64,000 nucleotides of DNA from Verrucomicrobiaceae bacterium (GTDB lineage: Bacteria; Verrucomicrobiota; Verrucomicrobiia; Verrucomicrobiales; Akkermansiaceae): contig JAIXQH010000047.1 in the NCBI GenBank assembly GCA_027484055.1, positions 1 to 64,000 on the forward strand. Direction: 5' to 3'. The position numbers and the translations under genes were made by a program. Within the stretch, counting starts at the first letter, position 1; each line of letters opens with the position of its first letter. This document shows, one piece after another, positions 1,269 to 60,787 of the stretch. Below the pieces are notes generated by a model. It saw only the letters and a program-made list of their open reading frames with translations, searched no databases and was not told the origin of the DNA.

Positions 1269-1357
1269 TTAAGACTTAAGACTTGGAGACGTAAGACTCA
1301 AGAGAAGAGGCAGAGGGTGATTTCTTGCGTCTTGTGTCTTAAAGTCTTGGGTCTTTT
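1269..1357. repeat. Intergenic inverted repeat with GTCTTA/TAAGAC units
   Basis: The gap between infB and rbfA is almost filled by two arms rich in a repeated AAGACT unit (1269-1304) and its complement AGTCTT/GTCTTG (1324-1357). The arms can fold on each other. The right arm runs into the infB stop codon. It resembles a mobile or REP-like intergenic element rather than a classical terminator, although it could slow transcription between the genes. Confidence 0.5.
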
Positions 1358-3533
1358 AGAGCGTTTGTGCGTATTTTTCGAGCTTGTAGCACTCAATGAT
1401 GTCGCCTTCTTCGTATTCATTGAACTCGCCGAGACGAATGCCGCATTCGAAGTTGGTGCGGACTTCCTCGACCTCGTCCTTGAAGCGGCGGAGCGTGGAC
1501 ATGCGACCGTCGAAGACAGGCGTGCCGCCACGGATGACGCGCGCGTGGGCCTTGCGGTGGATGCGTCCGTCCATGACGAAGGAGCCGGCGACCCGGCCGC
1601 GGTTGAGCTTGAAGACTTGGCGGACTTCGGCGTGACCGATGATCGATTCGCGTGTGAGTGGCTCCAGGAGGCCGAGCATGGCTTCCCGGACTTGGTCGAT
1701 GAGTTCGTAAACGATCGAGTAGAGCTTTACTTCGACATTTGCAGCCTTGGCGGCTTTTACGGCCTTGGCCTCGACCTTAACGTTGAAGCCGAGGATGATG
1801 GCATCTGTGGAGGCGGCGTAGGAGATGTCCGACTCGGTGATCGGGCCTGCGGCAGCGGTGATGAAAGAGGACTCGACCTTGTCGGAAGTGATGGCGAGCA
1901 CGGCTTTTTTGATCGCTTCTACGGAGCCTTGCACGTCGCATTTGAGGATGAGCTTGAGCTGGGCCTTACCGCCGCCGTCACGGACCATCGAATAGAGGTC
2001 CTCCATGCGATTGCGGTGTTGGGGTTTCAATCGGATGAGGCGCTGAGCTTCTTGGCGTTCACCGGCGAGGGACTTGGCCTCGCGTTCGGTTTTCATCTCG
2101 GTGAGGTGGTCGCCGACGTTTGGCAACTCTTCGAAGCCAATGACTTCGACGGGCATACCAGGGTGGGCTGACTTCACGGCGACGCCACGGTCATTGATAA
2201 GGGATCGGACTTTGCCGGCGTAGGGGCCGCAGATGAATGGGGTTCCGACCTTCAAGGTGCCGGACTCGATGATGACGGTGGCGGTGGTGCCTCGACCGGG
2301 GACAACGCGGGCCTCGATGACGGCGGCGCGGGCGAGGCCTTTGGGGTTAGCCTTGAGTTCGAGAACTTCAGCTTGGAGAGCCATGAGGTCGAGAAGGTCG
2401 TCCATGCCCATGCCGGTGAGGGCGGAAACTTCGGCGAATTCAGTGTCGCCGCCGTAGTCGGTTGTTTGGAGGCCGTTTTCTGCGAGTTGGGACTTCACGC
2501 GGTCCACGTTTGCAGATGGGAGATCACATTTGTTAATGGCGACGATGACCGTTTTCTTGGATTTCTTGGCGTGTTTGATGGCCTCGACGGTCTGGGGCAT
2601 GATGCCGTCATTCGCGGCGACCACGAGCACGATGATGTCCGTGATGTCTGCGCCACGAGCGCGCATGTCTGAGAAAATGGCATGGCCGGGAGTGTCGAGG
2701 AAGGTGATTTCCTGGTCTCTATGGATGACTTGGTAGGCACCGATGTGCTGGGTGATGCCGCCTGCTTCGCCTGAGGTGATCTTGGTTTTACGGAGGAAAT
2801 CGAGCAGCGACGTCTTTCCGTGGTCCACGTGGCCCATGATGGTGATGATGGGTGGACGGAATTTAAGGAGGTCAACCGGTTCAGCGACAGGTGCTTCTGG
2901 CTCTTTGATGACTTCGACAATTTTGTGGATACCCTTGTCCTTGTCGCGTTTTTCACGCTCGAAGACGAAGCCGTGGATTTCACAAATTTTGGCAGCGATG
3001 TCCGGTTCCAGCGGCTGGTTCGGAGCTGGAAAGACGCCGATTTTGATCAAGTCCGCCATGATGTTGAACGGCTTTAACCCGAGTCGGGCGGCCAGATCAG
3101 GGATCAGGATCGGGGGTTTGATGACGATGAGCTTTGGATCGTCTGGTTGGAGTCCATCATCTTCTTCGGCCAGTTGAGCGGCGGCTAGGGCAGCGGCTTC
3201 TGCGGTGGCCGCAGCAGCGGCTAGACTCGCGGCGTGAGCGGCTTTTGCGGCGGCTTCGATGAGGACGGGGTCTTCTGCGTCGAGCAGCTTGGAAATCGTG
3301 CCGAGCACGGCTTTGCCGGTGCGGGTGGTTTTCTTGACCTTCGGCTTTTTCTCGTCTGCGAAGAGGTCGAGGGCATTTGCTTTCTGCTCATCGAGCACGC
3401 TAGGGCCCGGAACAATCGCTTCTGGCTCCACTACCTCCTTGCGTTGGCGCTCGCGCCGCGAAGGTTTTTTAGTCGTATCGAGTAGATCGAGGACTTTAGA
3501 TTTTTTGGGAGAGCTGTTGCTATTTTCGGGCAT
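1356..3533 (-). CDS. infB: Translation initiation factor IF-2
   Basis: IF-2 is the GTPase that delivers fMet-tRNA to the 30S subunit and promotes subunit joining. The 725-residue protein has a lysine/alanine-rich N-terminal region, an IF2_N segment near residues 140-190, and then the G domain with G1 'GHVDHGKTS', G3 'DTPGH' and G4 'NKCD'. Domains II-IV follow, ending in '[18 protein letters not shown]'. It is shorter than the E. coli form because the N-terminal linker is short. nusA lies 62 bp upstream, so they are probably one transcription unit. Confidence 0.97.
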
Positions 3534-3595
3534 CCGGGCTGGCTGAAGAGTTCGTGAGAGTGTGGAAATGGGACGGGAATCGGTAAGAGGGTAAT

Positions 3596-4870
3596 TTAGG
3601 AGGCCGAGCTGCCGGTGACGATGTCTTTGGCGCGGACGAGAATCGCTTCTGCGGCTTGCTCGGTGATTTCGAGGGCGGCGGCGATGTAGTCGGCAGGCAT
3701 GTCGATGACGTGCTCCGGGATGAAGCCACCGGCGAGGGTTAGCTTGTTGGCGAGTTCGTCGGAGATGCCGAGCTGTTCGCCGAGGGTATGTGCGGCCCCG
3801 CCGATGCGTTCTTTAAATTGTTCTTCCTTGGACTCGTCGCGGCGGACTTGCACGTCCCAACCCATGAGGCGTGAGGAGAGGCGGGCGTTTTGGCCTTTAC
3901 GGCCGATGGCTTTACTGAGGTCGATTTCGTCCACGGTGACGTGGACGATGCGGTTCGCTTCGTCCACGGTGATGGAGCGCAGTTCGGCGGGCTTCAGGGC
4001 CTCACGGACAAATTCTTTGGGGTCTTCGCTCCAGCGGATGATGTCCACTTTCTCGTTGTTGAGTTCGCGGACGATGTTTTTGACGCGGGCACCGCGCATG
4101 CCGACGCAGGCACCGACGGGATCGACCTTCGGGTCGCTGCTCCAGACGGCAACTTTGGTGCGGAAACCGGCTTCGCGAGCGATACCGCGAATTTCCACGG
4201 TGCGGTCTGAGATTTCATTCACCTCGGCTTCGAACAAGCGGCGGACGAAGTTCGGGTGGCTGCGGGAGAGGATGATTTCTGGGCCACGGCCTTCATTTTC
4301 AACGGCTAAGACGTAGGCACGAATGCGGTCACCGATGTTGTAGTCTTCGCCTTGGACGCGTTCGCGGTTCGGCATGATGCCTTCGAATTTTCCGAGGTCG
4401 ATCATCACGTCATTCCGCTCGAAGCGGCGGACGGTGCCGGAGACGACATCGCCGGCGCGGTCCTTGAACTCTTCGTAAATCATCTCTTTCTCCGCCTGGC
4501 GGAGGCGCTGCATCATGGTCTGCTTGGCAGTCTGGACGGCGATGCGGCCGAAATCTTTGGGTGTGACGTTGAATTCTTGGGTGTCGCCGATTTGTGCAGT
4601 GGCCGATTTTTTGACGGCGGTGGATAGCGGGACTTCGTTGAACTTGTCTTGGTGGTCGTCATCGGCGACGACGCTGAGAATGGCGAAGATGCGAGTTTCG
4701 CCTTTTTTCAGGTTCACTTCAGCGCGAAGAGTCTCGATGGCGTCGGCACCCGGGACCATTTTGCGGTAGGCGGAGATGAAAGAAAACTCGAGCGCGGCAA
4801 CGACCTTGTCTCGGTCGATGCCTTTTTCTTTTTCGTAATACTCAATGAGGGCGACGATATCGTTGGTCAT
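3596..4870 (-). CDS. nusA: Transcription termination/antitermination factor NusA
   Basis: NusA binds RNA polymerase and nascent RNA and modulates pausing, termination and antitermination. The 424-residue protein has the N-terminal polymerase-binding domain, an S1 domain ('GDVVSGTVRRFERNDVMIDL', around residue 139), and two KH domains ('DPVGACVGMRGARVKNIV' and 'LSKAIGRKGQNARLSSRL'). A short helical tail resembles a single helix-hairpin-helix repeat. It heads a nusA-infB-rbfA block. rimP, which usually precedes nusA, is not here: the next gene upstream is folA, behind a terminator-like hairpin. Confidence 0.96.
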   Translation of the reverse strand: MTNDIVALIEYYEKEKGIDRDKVVAALEFSFISAYRKMVPGADAIETLRAEVNLKKGETRIFAILSVVADDDHQDKFNEVPLSTAVKKSATAQIGDTQEFNVTPKDFGRIAVQTAKQTMMQRLRQAEKEMIYEEFKDRAGDVVSGTVRRFERNDVMIDLGKFEGIMPNRERVQGEDYNIGDRIRAYVLAVENEGRGPEIILSRSHPNFVRRLFEAEVNEISDRTVEIRGIAREAGFRTKVAVWSSDPKVDPVGACVGMRGARVKNIVRELNNEKVDIIRWSEDPKEFVREALKPAELRSITVDEANRIVHVTVDEIDLSKAIGRKGQNARLSSRLMGWDVQVRRDESKEEQFKERIGGAAHTLGEQLGISDELANKLTLAGGFIPEHVIDMPADYIAAALEITEQAAEAILVRAKDIVTGSSAS

Positions 4871-4914
4871 GGCGGGCGGTGTCTGCGATCGGCGCTGCTG
4901 ATGTCTGGAGACGC

Positions 4915-4940
4915 AAAAGAGTGGGTTGAAAGACCCACTC
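4915..4940 (-). terminator. Rho-independent terminator between folA and nusA
   Basis: A perfect 8-bp stem (4919-4926 with 4933-4940) closes a 6-base loop. Read on the minus strand it is followed by four T residues. It would end thyA-folA transcripts and isolate the nusA block, which then needs its own promoter in the short stretch before 4870. Read on the plus strand the tail is a pyrimidine run, but no plus-strand gene ends here. Confidence 0.7.
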
Positions 4941-5016
4941 CTTTCTTTCGTCAGAAGCTGTATGGGGGTTTCTTAAGGTGGAGGGATTCCGGTTGCAAGC
5001 CGAAACTCGGCAGGTG

Positions 5017-5487
5017 CTAGGTCTGGAAGTGACGACGCACTTGGAAGGAGGGGTGGGTTTCGAGGATTTCTGAGTTTGGAAAGTGAGATTCAAACTCGGG
5101 CAGGAAGGTGTCTCCGGGGTGATTTTCGTTGAGGTGGCTGACGAGTAGATCGTCGAGTGTGGTGAGAAAGGCGGCGTAGATTTCGGCCCCGCCGATGATA
5201 AAGACCTGGCCGTCGAGGCCGGGGATTTGGGCGAGTTCGCCAGGGTGATGAATGATTTCTAGGCCGGGTGCGGACCAACTGAGGTCGCGGGTGAGTATGA
5301 TATTGCGGCGATTTGGGAGTGGGCGTCCGATGGATTCGTAGGTTTTCCGACCCATGACGATGGGATGACCGGTGGTGGTGCGTTTGAAAAATGCGAGGTC
5401 CTCGGGCAGGTGCCAGGGGAGCTTGCCTGCGCGACCGATGACGCGTTCTGGGGTCATGGCGACCAGGGCGGTGAGGCGTAGGCTCAT
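5017..5487 (-). CDS. folA: Dihydrofolate reductase
   Basis: DHFR reduces dihydrofolate to tetrahydrofolate with NADPH. It regenerates the folate oxidised by thymidylate synthase, whose gene is directly upstream. The 156-residue protein has the classical landmarks: 'RVIGRAGKLPWHLPEDLAFF' with the active-site Trp and acidic residue, 'IVMGRKTYESIGRPLPNR', and the NADPH-binding 'VFIIGGAEIYAAFL'. The start is 6 bp after the thyA stop, so the two are surely co-transcribed. Confidence 0.96.
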   Translation of the reverse strand: MSLRLTALVAMTPERVIGRAGKLPWHLPEDLAFFKRTTTGHPIVMGRKTYESIGRPLPNRRNIILTRDLSWSAPGLEIIHHPGELAQIPGLDGQVFIIGGAEIYAAFLTTLDDLLVSHLNENHPGDTFLPEFESHFPNSEILETHPSFQVRRHFQT

Positions 5488-5493
5488 GGGATT

Positions 5494-6306
5494 TTAAATG
5501 GCGACTGGGGCCTTGATGGGGGGGGGGGGATCGTAGTGATCGAGACGGATGTCGTCGATGGTGAAGGCGTCGAGGTCTTTAACGTCGGGATTTAACCAGA
5601 GTGTGGGGAGGGGGCGGGGCTCGCGGCTGAGCTGGAGGATGGTTTGCTCTAGGTGATTCGAGTAGAGGTGGACGTCGCCCATGGTGTGGACGAAGTCGCG
5701 GGCCTCGAAGCCGCAGACGTGGGCGATCATCTGGGTGAGGAGGGCGTAGGAAGCGATATTAAAGGGAACGCCGAGAAAGAGGTCGGCGCTGCGTTGATAG
5801 AGTTGGCAGGACAGGCCGGGGCGTCCGTCGGGTGGGGCTTCATGGACGTAAAATTGGAAGAGAAGGTGGCAAGGAGGGAGTGCCATTTGGTGGATTTGGC
5901 CGACATTCCATGCGGAGACGATGTGTCGGCGCGAATGGGGATTTCCTAATAAGCCGTCGATGAGGAGGCGGATTTGATCGACCGTCCGCCCTTCTGGAGT
6001 GGGCCATGAGCGCCATTGCTTGCCATAGACGGGGCCGAGTTCGCCTTCTGCATCGGCCCATTCGTCCCAGATGGTGACGCCATTTTCCTTAAGGTAGCGG
6101 GTGTTCGTCTCGCCGCGGAGGAACCAGAGGAGTTCGTGGATGATGGAGCGGAGGTGGAGTTTCTTGGTGGTGACGCAGGGGAAGCCGAGGCGTAGATCGT
6201 AGCGGACTTGGCGGCCGAAAAGGGACCGCGTGCCGGTGCCGGTGCGATCGGAACGGGTTTCACCGTTTTCCAAAACGTCGCGCATAAGATCGAGGTAGGG
6301 CTTCAC
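5494..6306 (-). CDS. thyA: Thymidylate synthase (ThyA type)
   Basis: ThyA methylates dUMP to dTMP with methylene-tetrahydrofolate and produces dihydrofolate for FolA. The protein shows '[11 protein letters not shown]', '[16 protein letters not shown]', '[20 protein letters not shown]', the nucleophile in '[12 protein letters not shown]', and a conserved end 'IKAPVAI'. A GTG at 6304-6306 is chosen because it gives '[11 protein letters not shown]', the standard ThyA N-terminus. A TTG at 6342 would add 12 unsupported residues. Near the end, 12 consecutive G bases (plus strand 5518-5529) encode a run of four prolines where the family usually has a mixed DPHPxI segment. Confidence 0.95.
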
Positions 6307-6360
6307 GCGGGAGATCAAGCCATGCGAGAAATCTGGCCGCAAGGCATAAGGGAGCCATTC

Positions 6361-7350: not shown

Positions 7351-7439
7351 AAATGGGAAAAATGAGAGTTGGCAACGACGAGGCGCTTTTTTTGAGGTTG
7401 CCCGCTTGGTGCTTACTCAGTGAGATAAAGGAACTTGAT

Positions 7440-8708
7440 ATGAACTCACTTTCACCACGACCGCTTGAACTCACGTTGGAGGAAATGGTGATGCAAGTGC
7501 ATGACTTACTGGCGGGTTCTGTGGATGGGCCGACGAGGGAAGAAATCGAAGCGGTGTGCAATGTCTTGTATGCGTCGAGTCTTTTAAAGGAAGAAGGGCG
7601 CGTGGTGAGGGCGCGGTTGATACTGGCACCGGCGGATGCATTTTCCTCGGCTGAAGAATCTCCGACAGGGGCGAACGTGGTGAGATTTGAGCGGCCTCAA
7701 CCGTTGACGAGTCATTCGATCAAGGGGCTGAGTCCGGCAGCGAGTTTTTTTCACTCGGCACTGGGAATCTGGCCGGACCGGGACCGAGGGTTTCGCATTT
7801 GGGGCATCATTAACACGGGGCCGCGCTGGTTGAACTTGGTGGCGGGCGGGCGGAAATCAGTGGGGGAGGTGATGCCGTATCCGATCATCCATGTGCGTGA
7901 TCCGGGGTGGTTACTTTTTTATTATGGGTATAGTTTGCTTGCCGAGTGGCGGGGGCGGGATTTTTTCGGGCCGCGGATGGATGTGTTTCAGTCGCGCTTG
8001 CTACACGAGCGTTTCGCCGGGCATCGGCTGGAATTTGTGCAGGGCTTGATCGAGTGTTGTCTGCCGGGCACTCTGAGCGTGGCGGTTTATGCGGATGTGT
8101 CGCATTTGATTTCCCTCCAGTTTGTCAAACGCATCATCAATCTTGTGCGATCAAGCGGCCATGGCGGGAGTTTGGTTTTCATCCCGCAGTCGCAGGAAGC
8201 GAGTGGCTGGATCGACTGTAAATTTCCCTTGGCTTCGGATGGTGAGGTCTCGCGGTTCCGGAAGCTGCTGCATGCGATGATCCGGCGCTTAGGTGAACTC
8301 TGCGAACCAGGGGCGAGTGCGGATGAGGCGTGGCAGGTGTTTCGAAATCATAGCGATACGCAGCTGGATCGCTTGGAGGAATCGTTTTTTGAATTGGCTC
8401 GGCTGCTCTCGGATATGATGCAAGTGGACGGGGCCTTAGTGCTCGACCAGTCGCTGCGAATCATCGGCTTCGGTGGGGAAATCCGGGTGGACCGGAATGT
8501 GTTAGCGGTGAGTCACGCACAGGACTTGGAGGGGAGGCATGTCACCCCGTGGAATGTGCAAAGTGATGGCACGCGGCATCGTTCGGTTTACCGATTGTGT
8601 TCGGTGGAGCCGAAGATGCTCGGGTTTGTCATTTCACAAGACAGCCATGTGCGGATGATTGCGAACGTGGATGACGCGGTGGTATTCTGGCAGCACTCGA
8701 TGATCTGA
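7440..8708 (+). CDS. Putative diadenylate cyclase (DAC domain) with an N-terminal sensor-like module
   Basis: The C-terminal part (about residues 300-415 of 422) carries both active-site motifs of the DisA/CdaA diadenylate cyclase domain: DGA at about 330-332 ('VDGALVLDQ') and GTRHRS at about 377-382. These bind ATP and form c-di-AMP in known enzymes. After the RHR motif comes 'GFVISQDSHVRMI', as in DAC folds. The first 300 residues match neither the DisA nor the CdaA layout; there is no membrane segment and no HhH domain. A segment 'GHGGSLVFIP' suggests the DACNV-type modules predicted to partner DAC domains. ATG 7440 is chosen because AAAGGAA precedes it; an in-frame ATG at 7353 lacks this. 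Cyclase activity is inferred. Confidence 0.7.
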   Translation: MNSLSPRPLELTLEEMVMQVHDLLAGSVDGPTREEIEAVCNVLYASSLLKEEGRVVRARLILAPADAFSSAEESPTGANVVRFERPQPLTSHSIKGLSPAASFFHSALGIWPDRDRGFRIWGIINTGPRWLNLVAGGRKSVGEVMPYPIIHVRDPGWLLFYYGYSLLAEWRGRDFFGPRMDVFQSRLLHERFAGHRLEFVQGLIECCLPGTLSVAVYADVSHLISLQFVKRIINLVRSSGHGGSLVFIPQSQEASGWIDCKFPLASDGEVSRFRKLLHAMIRRLGELCEPGASADEAWQVFRNHSDTQLDRLEESFFELARLLSDMMQVDGALVLDQSLRIIGFGGEIRVDRNVLAVSHAQDLEGRHVTPWNVQSDGTRHRSVYRLCSVEPKMLGFVISQDSHVRMIANVDDAVVFWQHSMI

Positions 8709-60714: not shown

Positions 60715-60787
60715 TGGAGCGTAGCGGATTCGAACCGCTGACCCCTTGCATGCCATGCAAGTGCTCTACCAACTGAGCTAACGCCCC
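60715..60787 (-). tRNA. tRNA-Ala, anticodon GGC
   Basis: The minus strand folds as a 73-base cloverleaf starting GGGGCGTTAGCTCAGTTGGT. The anticodon stem CTTGC/GCAAG encloses ATGGCAT with anticodon GGC; the T arm is GCGGTTCGAATCCGC. The acceptor stem contains the G3-U70 pair that identifies alanine tRNAs. The discriminator is A and CCA is not encoded, so it must be added after transcription. Confidence 0.97.

Follow-up and report, generated by a model that had tools for sequence, protein, structure and literature searches.

The DNA analysed (the window, 64,000 nucleotides in all) carries at positions 7440 to 8708 of the + strand a gene for a protein of 422 amino acids. From its reading frame, Pfam matches and predicted structure, the product is predicted to be a soluble auxiliary diadenylate cyclase, here called the DACNV-DAC protein. 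The reading frame is open over 7353–8708, with the start codon ATG at 7440 and the stop codon at 8706–8708, and a Shine-Dalgarno-like AAAGGAA, read from the sequence, precedes the ATG at 7427–7433 (+ strand). The maximum Kyte-Doolittle hydropathy in 19-residue windows is 1.36, with no window at 1.6 or above, and the protein is probably soluble and free of membrane helices.

The gene is flanked by a divergent 2-hydroxyacid dehydrogenase gene on one side and a convergent trans-2-enoyl-CoA reductase gene on the other. When 16 loci were compared, the downstream neighbourhood was common only to that of one relative (L008), and among 595 frames in flanks of up to 6 kb (shorter at some loci) no family besides DACNV and shadows in other frames occurred in more than three loci. 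An operon partner was therefore rejected for want of a conserved neighbour family. A defence or phage origin was likewise rejected, as no PADLOC family, PHROG or phage record was found; relatives of the protein were also absent among 46 pattern-matched stretches of viral contigs. Elsewhere in the window, a tRNA gene at 60715–60787 (- strand) is the sole Rfam match above threshold, and translations from 1356–6342 (- strand) resemble, by eye, IF-2, NusA, dihydrofolate reductase and thymidylate synthase.

The DACNV family and its members

Residues 31–124 (7530–7811, + strand) match the Pfam family DACNV (PF21751) with 80.9 bits for the whole protein (E 7.7e-23) and 82.8 bits for the N-terminus (E 2e-23), against a curated cut-off of 27 bits. 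The second half of the protein scores 13.6 bits with the DAC profile PF02457, below the curated cut-off of 27 bits; a Hymenobacter relative reaches 24.9 bits. Thus, of the two profile searches proposed in the preliminary description, one returned a match over its cut-off and the other did not, and the suggestion of a DACNV-type protein was borne out. Related Hymenobacter plasmid proteins are named 'putative sensor domain DACNV-containing protein' in RefSeq, and the window protein is a member of this already named family. It shares the domain with DACNV-containing proteins (E 2e-23 to 8e-23), and its architecture over the whole length with a Hymenobacter monticola plasmid protein, to which it is 28–30% identical; there is no difference in kind from the family. 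The DACNV domain stands N-terminal to a predicted DAC fold (residues about 214–422). Word searches of the open-licence literature found no relevant paper on DACNV by name and no experimental work on the family. A comparative genomics paper of 2015 is reportedly the source of the DACN names. Searches of the PDB by sequence gave no meaningful solved relative.

A pattern scan of 84,980 species genomes gave 15 loci, all from Verrucomicrobiota, with 41–69% identity to the window protein. Loci L008–L022 were retrieved by two peptide patterns, one of which contained VDGA, so that DGA was partly selected there while GTRHR and SQD were not. Further relatives, including one on a Bacteroidota plasmid at 28% identity, came from PF21751, from tblastn (both independent of the C-terminal motifs) or from whole-length alignment. 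The frames of seven loci were picked by the strings TRHR and EEG; six passed, L052, which carries GTRHR and lacks EEG, was brought in by its coordinates, and no locus was lost for want of TRHR. The resulting conservation set comprises 22 distinct sequences, the window protein and 21 relatives. Duplicates and two partial sequences, L004 and L022, were left out, as was L043, which is in pieces. L004 and L022 seem to be the halves of a single gene of genome G119, lying at contig ends, and L022 carries VDGA, GTRHR and SQD. L043 (5905–7147, on a Hymenobacter volaticus plasmid) is a DACNV gene annotated as two adjacent frames, matched piecewise and perhaps broken. All seven loci not fetched by pattern (L003, L005, L042, L047, L048, L051 and L052) carry VDG, GTRHR and SQD.

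The predicted C-terminal DAC domain

The DGA motif lies at residues 330–332 (8427–8435, + strand) and GTRHR at 377–381 (8568–8582, + strand), 47 residues apart, in agreement with the preliminary description, which had both intact about 45 residues apart. In the alignment, DG 330–331, GTRHR 377–381, HGG 241–243 and SQD 399–401 are invariant in 22/22 sequences, and residue 332 is Ala in 21 of the 22, with Val in L047. With DG and GTRHR unvarying and A332 nearly so, the alignment indicates that these motifs are no chance occurrence. The preliminary description correctly listed both as present and overlooked the place of a third. Literal GALI and (V/I)SEE are absent; HGG (8160–8168, + strand), at the expected strand, is the probable counterpart of GALI as inferred from the secondary structure, and (V/I)SQD (SQD at 8634–8642, + strand) is in register with SEE in the profile comparisons. 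The second Glu of SEE is described as coordinating metal in DACs (PMC7288161). In the window protein an Asp occupies this position, so that an acid is kept there together with the Ser.

The whole protein was modelled from 16 sequences. The best of five models had pLDDT 82.8 and pTM 0.78, and the other four pLDDT 62.9–73.4. In the Foldseek search of the PDB, rows 1–22 were all DisA, CdaA or DacA chains (E 4e-4 to 2e-2; ≤0.001 for three), and VIA gave Z 10.2–12.7 for 40 DAC entries, with the ten next rows at 2.8–3.6. The predicted fold is thus that of DisA and CdaA, a comparison the preliminary description had proposed for DisA. The matches start at residues 179–220 and end at 421–422, and a catalytic-type DAC domain of about 205 residues is predicted (214/218–422 in the model; residues about 214–422 correspond to 8079–8705, + strand). 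This is nearly twice the C-terminal 120 residues to which the catalytic part had been assigned. What had been taken for a separate scaffold of 300 residues before the motifs would comprise an N-terminal module of about 175 residues followed by the first half of the DAC domain; it indeed lacks CdaA helices, CdaA_N and HhH, but its DACNV domain is known to Pfam.

From the GALI place to DGA there are about 88 residues, versus 42 in the CdaA encoded in the same genome, and from DGA to RHR 47 versus 30, while RHR and the SEE place are separated by 22 versus 21. Compared with that CdaA, the DAC domain is therefore longer by about 65 residues, which probably accounts for the poor PF02457 score. In the model and by this spacing, an extra helical segment lies between the GALI-like strand and DGA at residues about 264–306 (8229–8357, + strand; limits uncertain). 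Profile comparison by hhalign with 34 CdaA domains of the phylum gave E 6e-4 (for one comparison) and a probability of 28%, with DGA, GTRHR and S-Q-D paired with DG, GTRHR and SEE; with only four CdaA sequences the values were E 0.026 and 1.9%, and the register was unchanged.

Compared with CdaA (DacA), the window protein shares the DAC fold (Z 10–12) and the DG and RHR motifs but lacks transmembrane helices and any CdaA_N match, has the DACNV domain in front, and has the longer DAC domain with SQD for SEE. Its best fold match is the DAC domain of DisA (Z 12.7), like it a soluble DAC; in DisA, however, this domain is N-terminal, whereas in the window protein it is C-terminal, the fold runs to the C-terminus and no HhH match was found in the Pfam scan. 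The CdaS N-terminus is helical and is not known to include a second DAC-like domain. The CdaS homologue of Bacillus cereus, identified as PDB 2fb5 in PMC8573169, has the DAC fold and matches the C-terminal half with Z 12.3.

The N-terminal domain as a probable degenerate DAC

Because VIA with the whole model barely tested the N-terminus, residues 1–190 were modelled separately, with 15 sequences as input (pLDDT 76.0, range over five models 73.0–76.0; pTM 0.76). Among 998 chains aligned from the 1000 best chains of Foldseek, 70 had Z of at least 2 and the others were below 2. These 70 fall in 40 entries, all of them DACs and the same 40 that match the C-terminal half; 39 are titled DisA, CdaA, DacA, DacM, CdaM or diadenylate cyclase, the title of 2fb5 being hypothetical protein. 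The Z values were 6.3–9.4 (most 7–8, and 31 of the 40 rows below 8, where a match may reflect a common arrangement), with rmsd 3.6–4.7 Å over 113–133 of the 190 residues. The best match was 2fb5 (Z 9.4, 133 residues, 3.8 Å). The aligned range is mostly residues 28–174 (7521–7961, + strand), and its end corresponds to position 143/144 of the CdaA structures, the same place as residue 422 of the whole-protein model.

In the predicted models, the order of helices (H) and strands (E) agrees between the two halves. The N-terminal domain has H33–47, E58–62, E79–88, H91–101, E106–113, E117–125, H129–134, E148–154, E157–162 and E165–171. The C-terminal domain has H214–239, E243–248, E258–263, helices to 326, E332–336, E341–348, H378–389, E394–398, E404–410 and E413–419, with two short extra strands at 357–371. 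In the register suggested by the model, the DGA place would be taken by HSA (105–107), the GTRHR place by GPRWLN (127–132) and the SEE place by RDPG (153–156). S106, G127, P155 and G156 are invariant, and the Bacteroidota copy and L052 deviate from these strings at other positions. With this register, the conserved N-terminal positions would sit where a DAC holds its nucleotide. The strings DGA and RHR are absent from the part aligned to residues 1–190 in all 22 rows.

The likeness is one of predicted structure. In hhalign, with DACNV-family profiles that are shallow (Neff ≤2.7), the N-terminal half showed no relation to either the C-terminal half or the CdaA domains, and PF02457 matched none of the 15 N-terminal sequences. 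A sequence-profile search of the PDB with the N-terminal domain gave no DAC, the Foldseek PDB list for its model showed no DAC and nothing credible among the best 50 of 157 matches, and the viral structure library gave no match at E 0.001. When ungapped diagonals were scored at the positions that the structure predicts, two ranked 1523 of 33810 and 655 of 33440 (501 of 32706 with a longer comparison window on the same strand). A third ranked 524 of 28130 as the best of four offsets (the others 3350, 4113 and 15351), and a fourth 304 of 28470 as the best of eight (the others 2007 to 25163). At best these lie in the top 1–5%, a weak and partly picked signal.

Taken from the models, the DACNV domain is likely to be a degenerate DAC, or pseudo-DAC. 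Given a DAC-like N-terminal fold lacking DGA and RHR, the protein reads as a tandem of pseudo-DAC and DAC. The preliminary description of a soluble sensor-coupled cyclase is thus supported as to probable solubility and revised as to the N-terminus, which would most likely be a degenerate DAC and not a foreign sensor fold. The family name DACNV was already known; the new element is this model-based reading of the domain, which is absent from the family name. No description of such a tandem architecture was found in word searches of the open-licence literature.

Genomic setting and proposed function

In the genome of the window, the single DAC over the Pfam cut-off is a CdaA with CdaA_N and transmembrane windows, so the label of an unconventional c-di-AMP synthase must be read beside this conventional enzyme. 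The search for phosphodiesterases and receptors recommended in the preliminary description revealed a PgpH-like 7TM-HD protein, a DHH-DHHA1 protein and TrkA_C matches at four places (three over cut-off); no c-di-AMP riboswitch scored over cut-off in this genome (best 13.2 bits, versus 38). With a conventional CdaA and a PgpH-like protein encoded in the same genome, the DACNV-DAC protein is here predicted to be an auxiliary cyclase. This CdaA (L006, 1168–2004) and those of three relatives (L024, L025 and L026) have DGG/GLRHR instead of DGA/GTRHR.

Among sampled genomes of the phylum, 5 of 240 had a PF21751 match, and when alignment was added DACNV proteins were found in 10 of 387. A canonical DAC over cut-off is present in 371 of the 387 and in nine of the ten genomes with DACNV. 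The remaining one, G257 (97% complete; locus L052), has the DACNV protein and PF07698 but no DAC over cut-off, its best PF02457 match (15.4 bits) being the DACNV gene. This gene is possibly the sole DAC of that genome, or an assembly gap may account for the finding. PF07698 occurs in all ten DACNV genomes (the HD domain was checked in the genome of the window), and with CdaA and the TrkA_C domains this makes c-di-AMP turnover plausible there. A genome of the same genus (G215) has a DAC over cut-off and no DACNV gene. The DACNV gene is thus patchy and accessory in the phylum, given its presence in 10 of 387 genomes, its absence from G215 and the usual presence of a canonical DAC over cut-off. 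In G119 and G134, the only DAC over cut-off is a fusion of PTS_EIIA_2, DacZ_P and DAC (L027, 1459–2820, - strand; L028, 541–1920, + strand) with altered motifs, GARHS or GSRHS and SSST or SAST. PF02457 matches of comparable strength (about E 1e-24 to 1e-16) occur in many further genomes of the class.

The reading that we favour, and hold to be reasonably probable, is that of a soluble stand-alone auxiliary diadenylate cyclase in which the C-terminal DAC makes c-di-AMP and the degenerate N-terminal DAC tunes the output. The gene, its motifs and their conservation, and the genes for CdaA and the PgpH-like protein are observed, the two DAC folds come from models, and solubility, catalysis, ligand binding and regulation are inferred. 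The C-terminal DAC (about 214–422) would bind ATP via DGA, GTRHR and S-Q-D, and the DAC domains of two chains would pair face to face to form c-di-AMP. Such pairing of two DAC domains is stated to be required for catalysis, and GlmM to block CdaA by preventing it (PMC8573169). The DACNV domain (about 28–174) would have lost the catalytic residues, while conserved ones around the former pocket persisted. It may bind a ligand, perhaps a nucleotide, and/or hold the DACs in or out of the face-to-face arrangement. By its ligand or by occupying a face, it would set the frequency of pairing and thereby tune output beside the housekeeping CdaA. Counted against this reading were the PF02457 score of 13.6 versus 27 bits, SQD in place of SEE and HGG in place of GALI, the variation among the five whole-protein models (mean pLDDT from 82.8 to 62.9, the best being kept), the lack of an N-terminal sequence signal to DACs and the lack of a conserved partner gene.

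A more specific form, in which DACNV proteins are asymmetric cyclases with pseudo-DAC facing DAC within one chain like the halves of a DAC dimer, is tentative and rather doubtful. The pseudo-DAC would then park the active site until a ligand in the former ATP pocket relieved the autoinhibition, or alternatively would supply an allosteric half-site. The C1/C2 pair of mammalian adenylyl cyclases would be a parallel to pseudo-DAC and DAC. On this reading, further Pfam 'probable sensor' domains found in DAC proteins might conceal the same origin.

If the DACNV domain were instead an independent alpha/beta fold, its likeness to DACs a coincidence of modelling or alignment, the protein would be a catalytic DAC with an unrelated sensor. 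The Pfam name implies a sensor, no sequence signal joins DACNV to any DAC, no DAC is among the best 50 of 157 Foldseek matches, and the alignment is shallow (15 rows). However, all 40 entries at Z of at least 2 (70 of 998 chains) are DACs and the same 40 as for the C-terminal half, 113–133 of 190 modelled residues align, and the order of helices and strands matches, so that this alternative appears unlikely. Alternatively, the altered SEE and GALI places and the extra helices might stop turnover, leaving a protein that binds a nucleotide or c-di-AMP through motifs kept for ligand binding. Such a receptor would fit SQD, HGG, the ~65 extra residues, the low PF02457 score and the presence of CdaA to supply c-di-AMP. 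It is nevertheless improbable in view of the invariance in 22 sequences of Asp-Gly, GTRHR, the Ser and the acidic residue at the metal position, and of the single genome in which DACNV occurs and no CdaA passes the cut-off. A different product, for example a linear or mixed dinucleotide formed when a DAC pairs with a pseudo-DAC, be it in the same chain or in a different one, would be in keeping with the tandem, with one catalytic site per chain and with the altered motifs of the metal and base pocket. Two intact DAC sites, one from each of two chains, can come together in the manner of DisA or CdaA, which leaves this proposal very improbable indeed.

According to PMC8573169, a DAC is active only once two catalytic domains have come face to face, and control of pairing is therefore control of c-di-AMP. 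The protein would place a second, soluble DAC (predicted) in Verrucomicrobiota, where c-di-AMP seems little studied, as judged by a search of open-licence full texts. If the favoured reading is true, the natural fusion of a dead DAC with a live one would act as an inbuilt device for pairing or inhibition, and the 'probable sensor domain DACNV' would gain a concrete origin; a single purified protein would suffice to test its ligand and mechanism.
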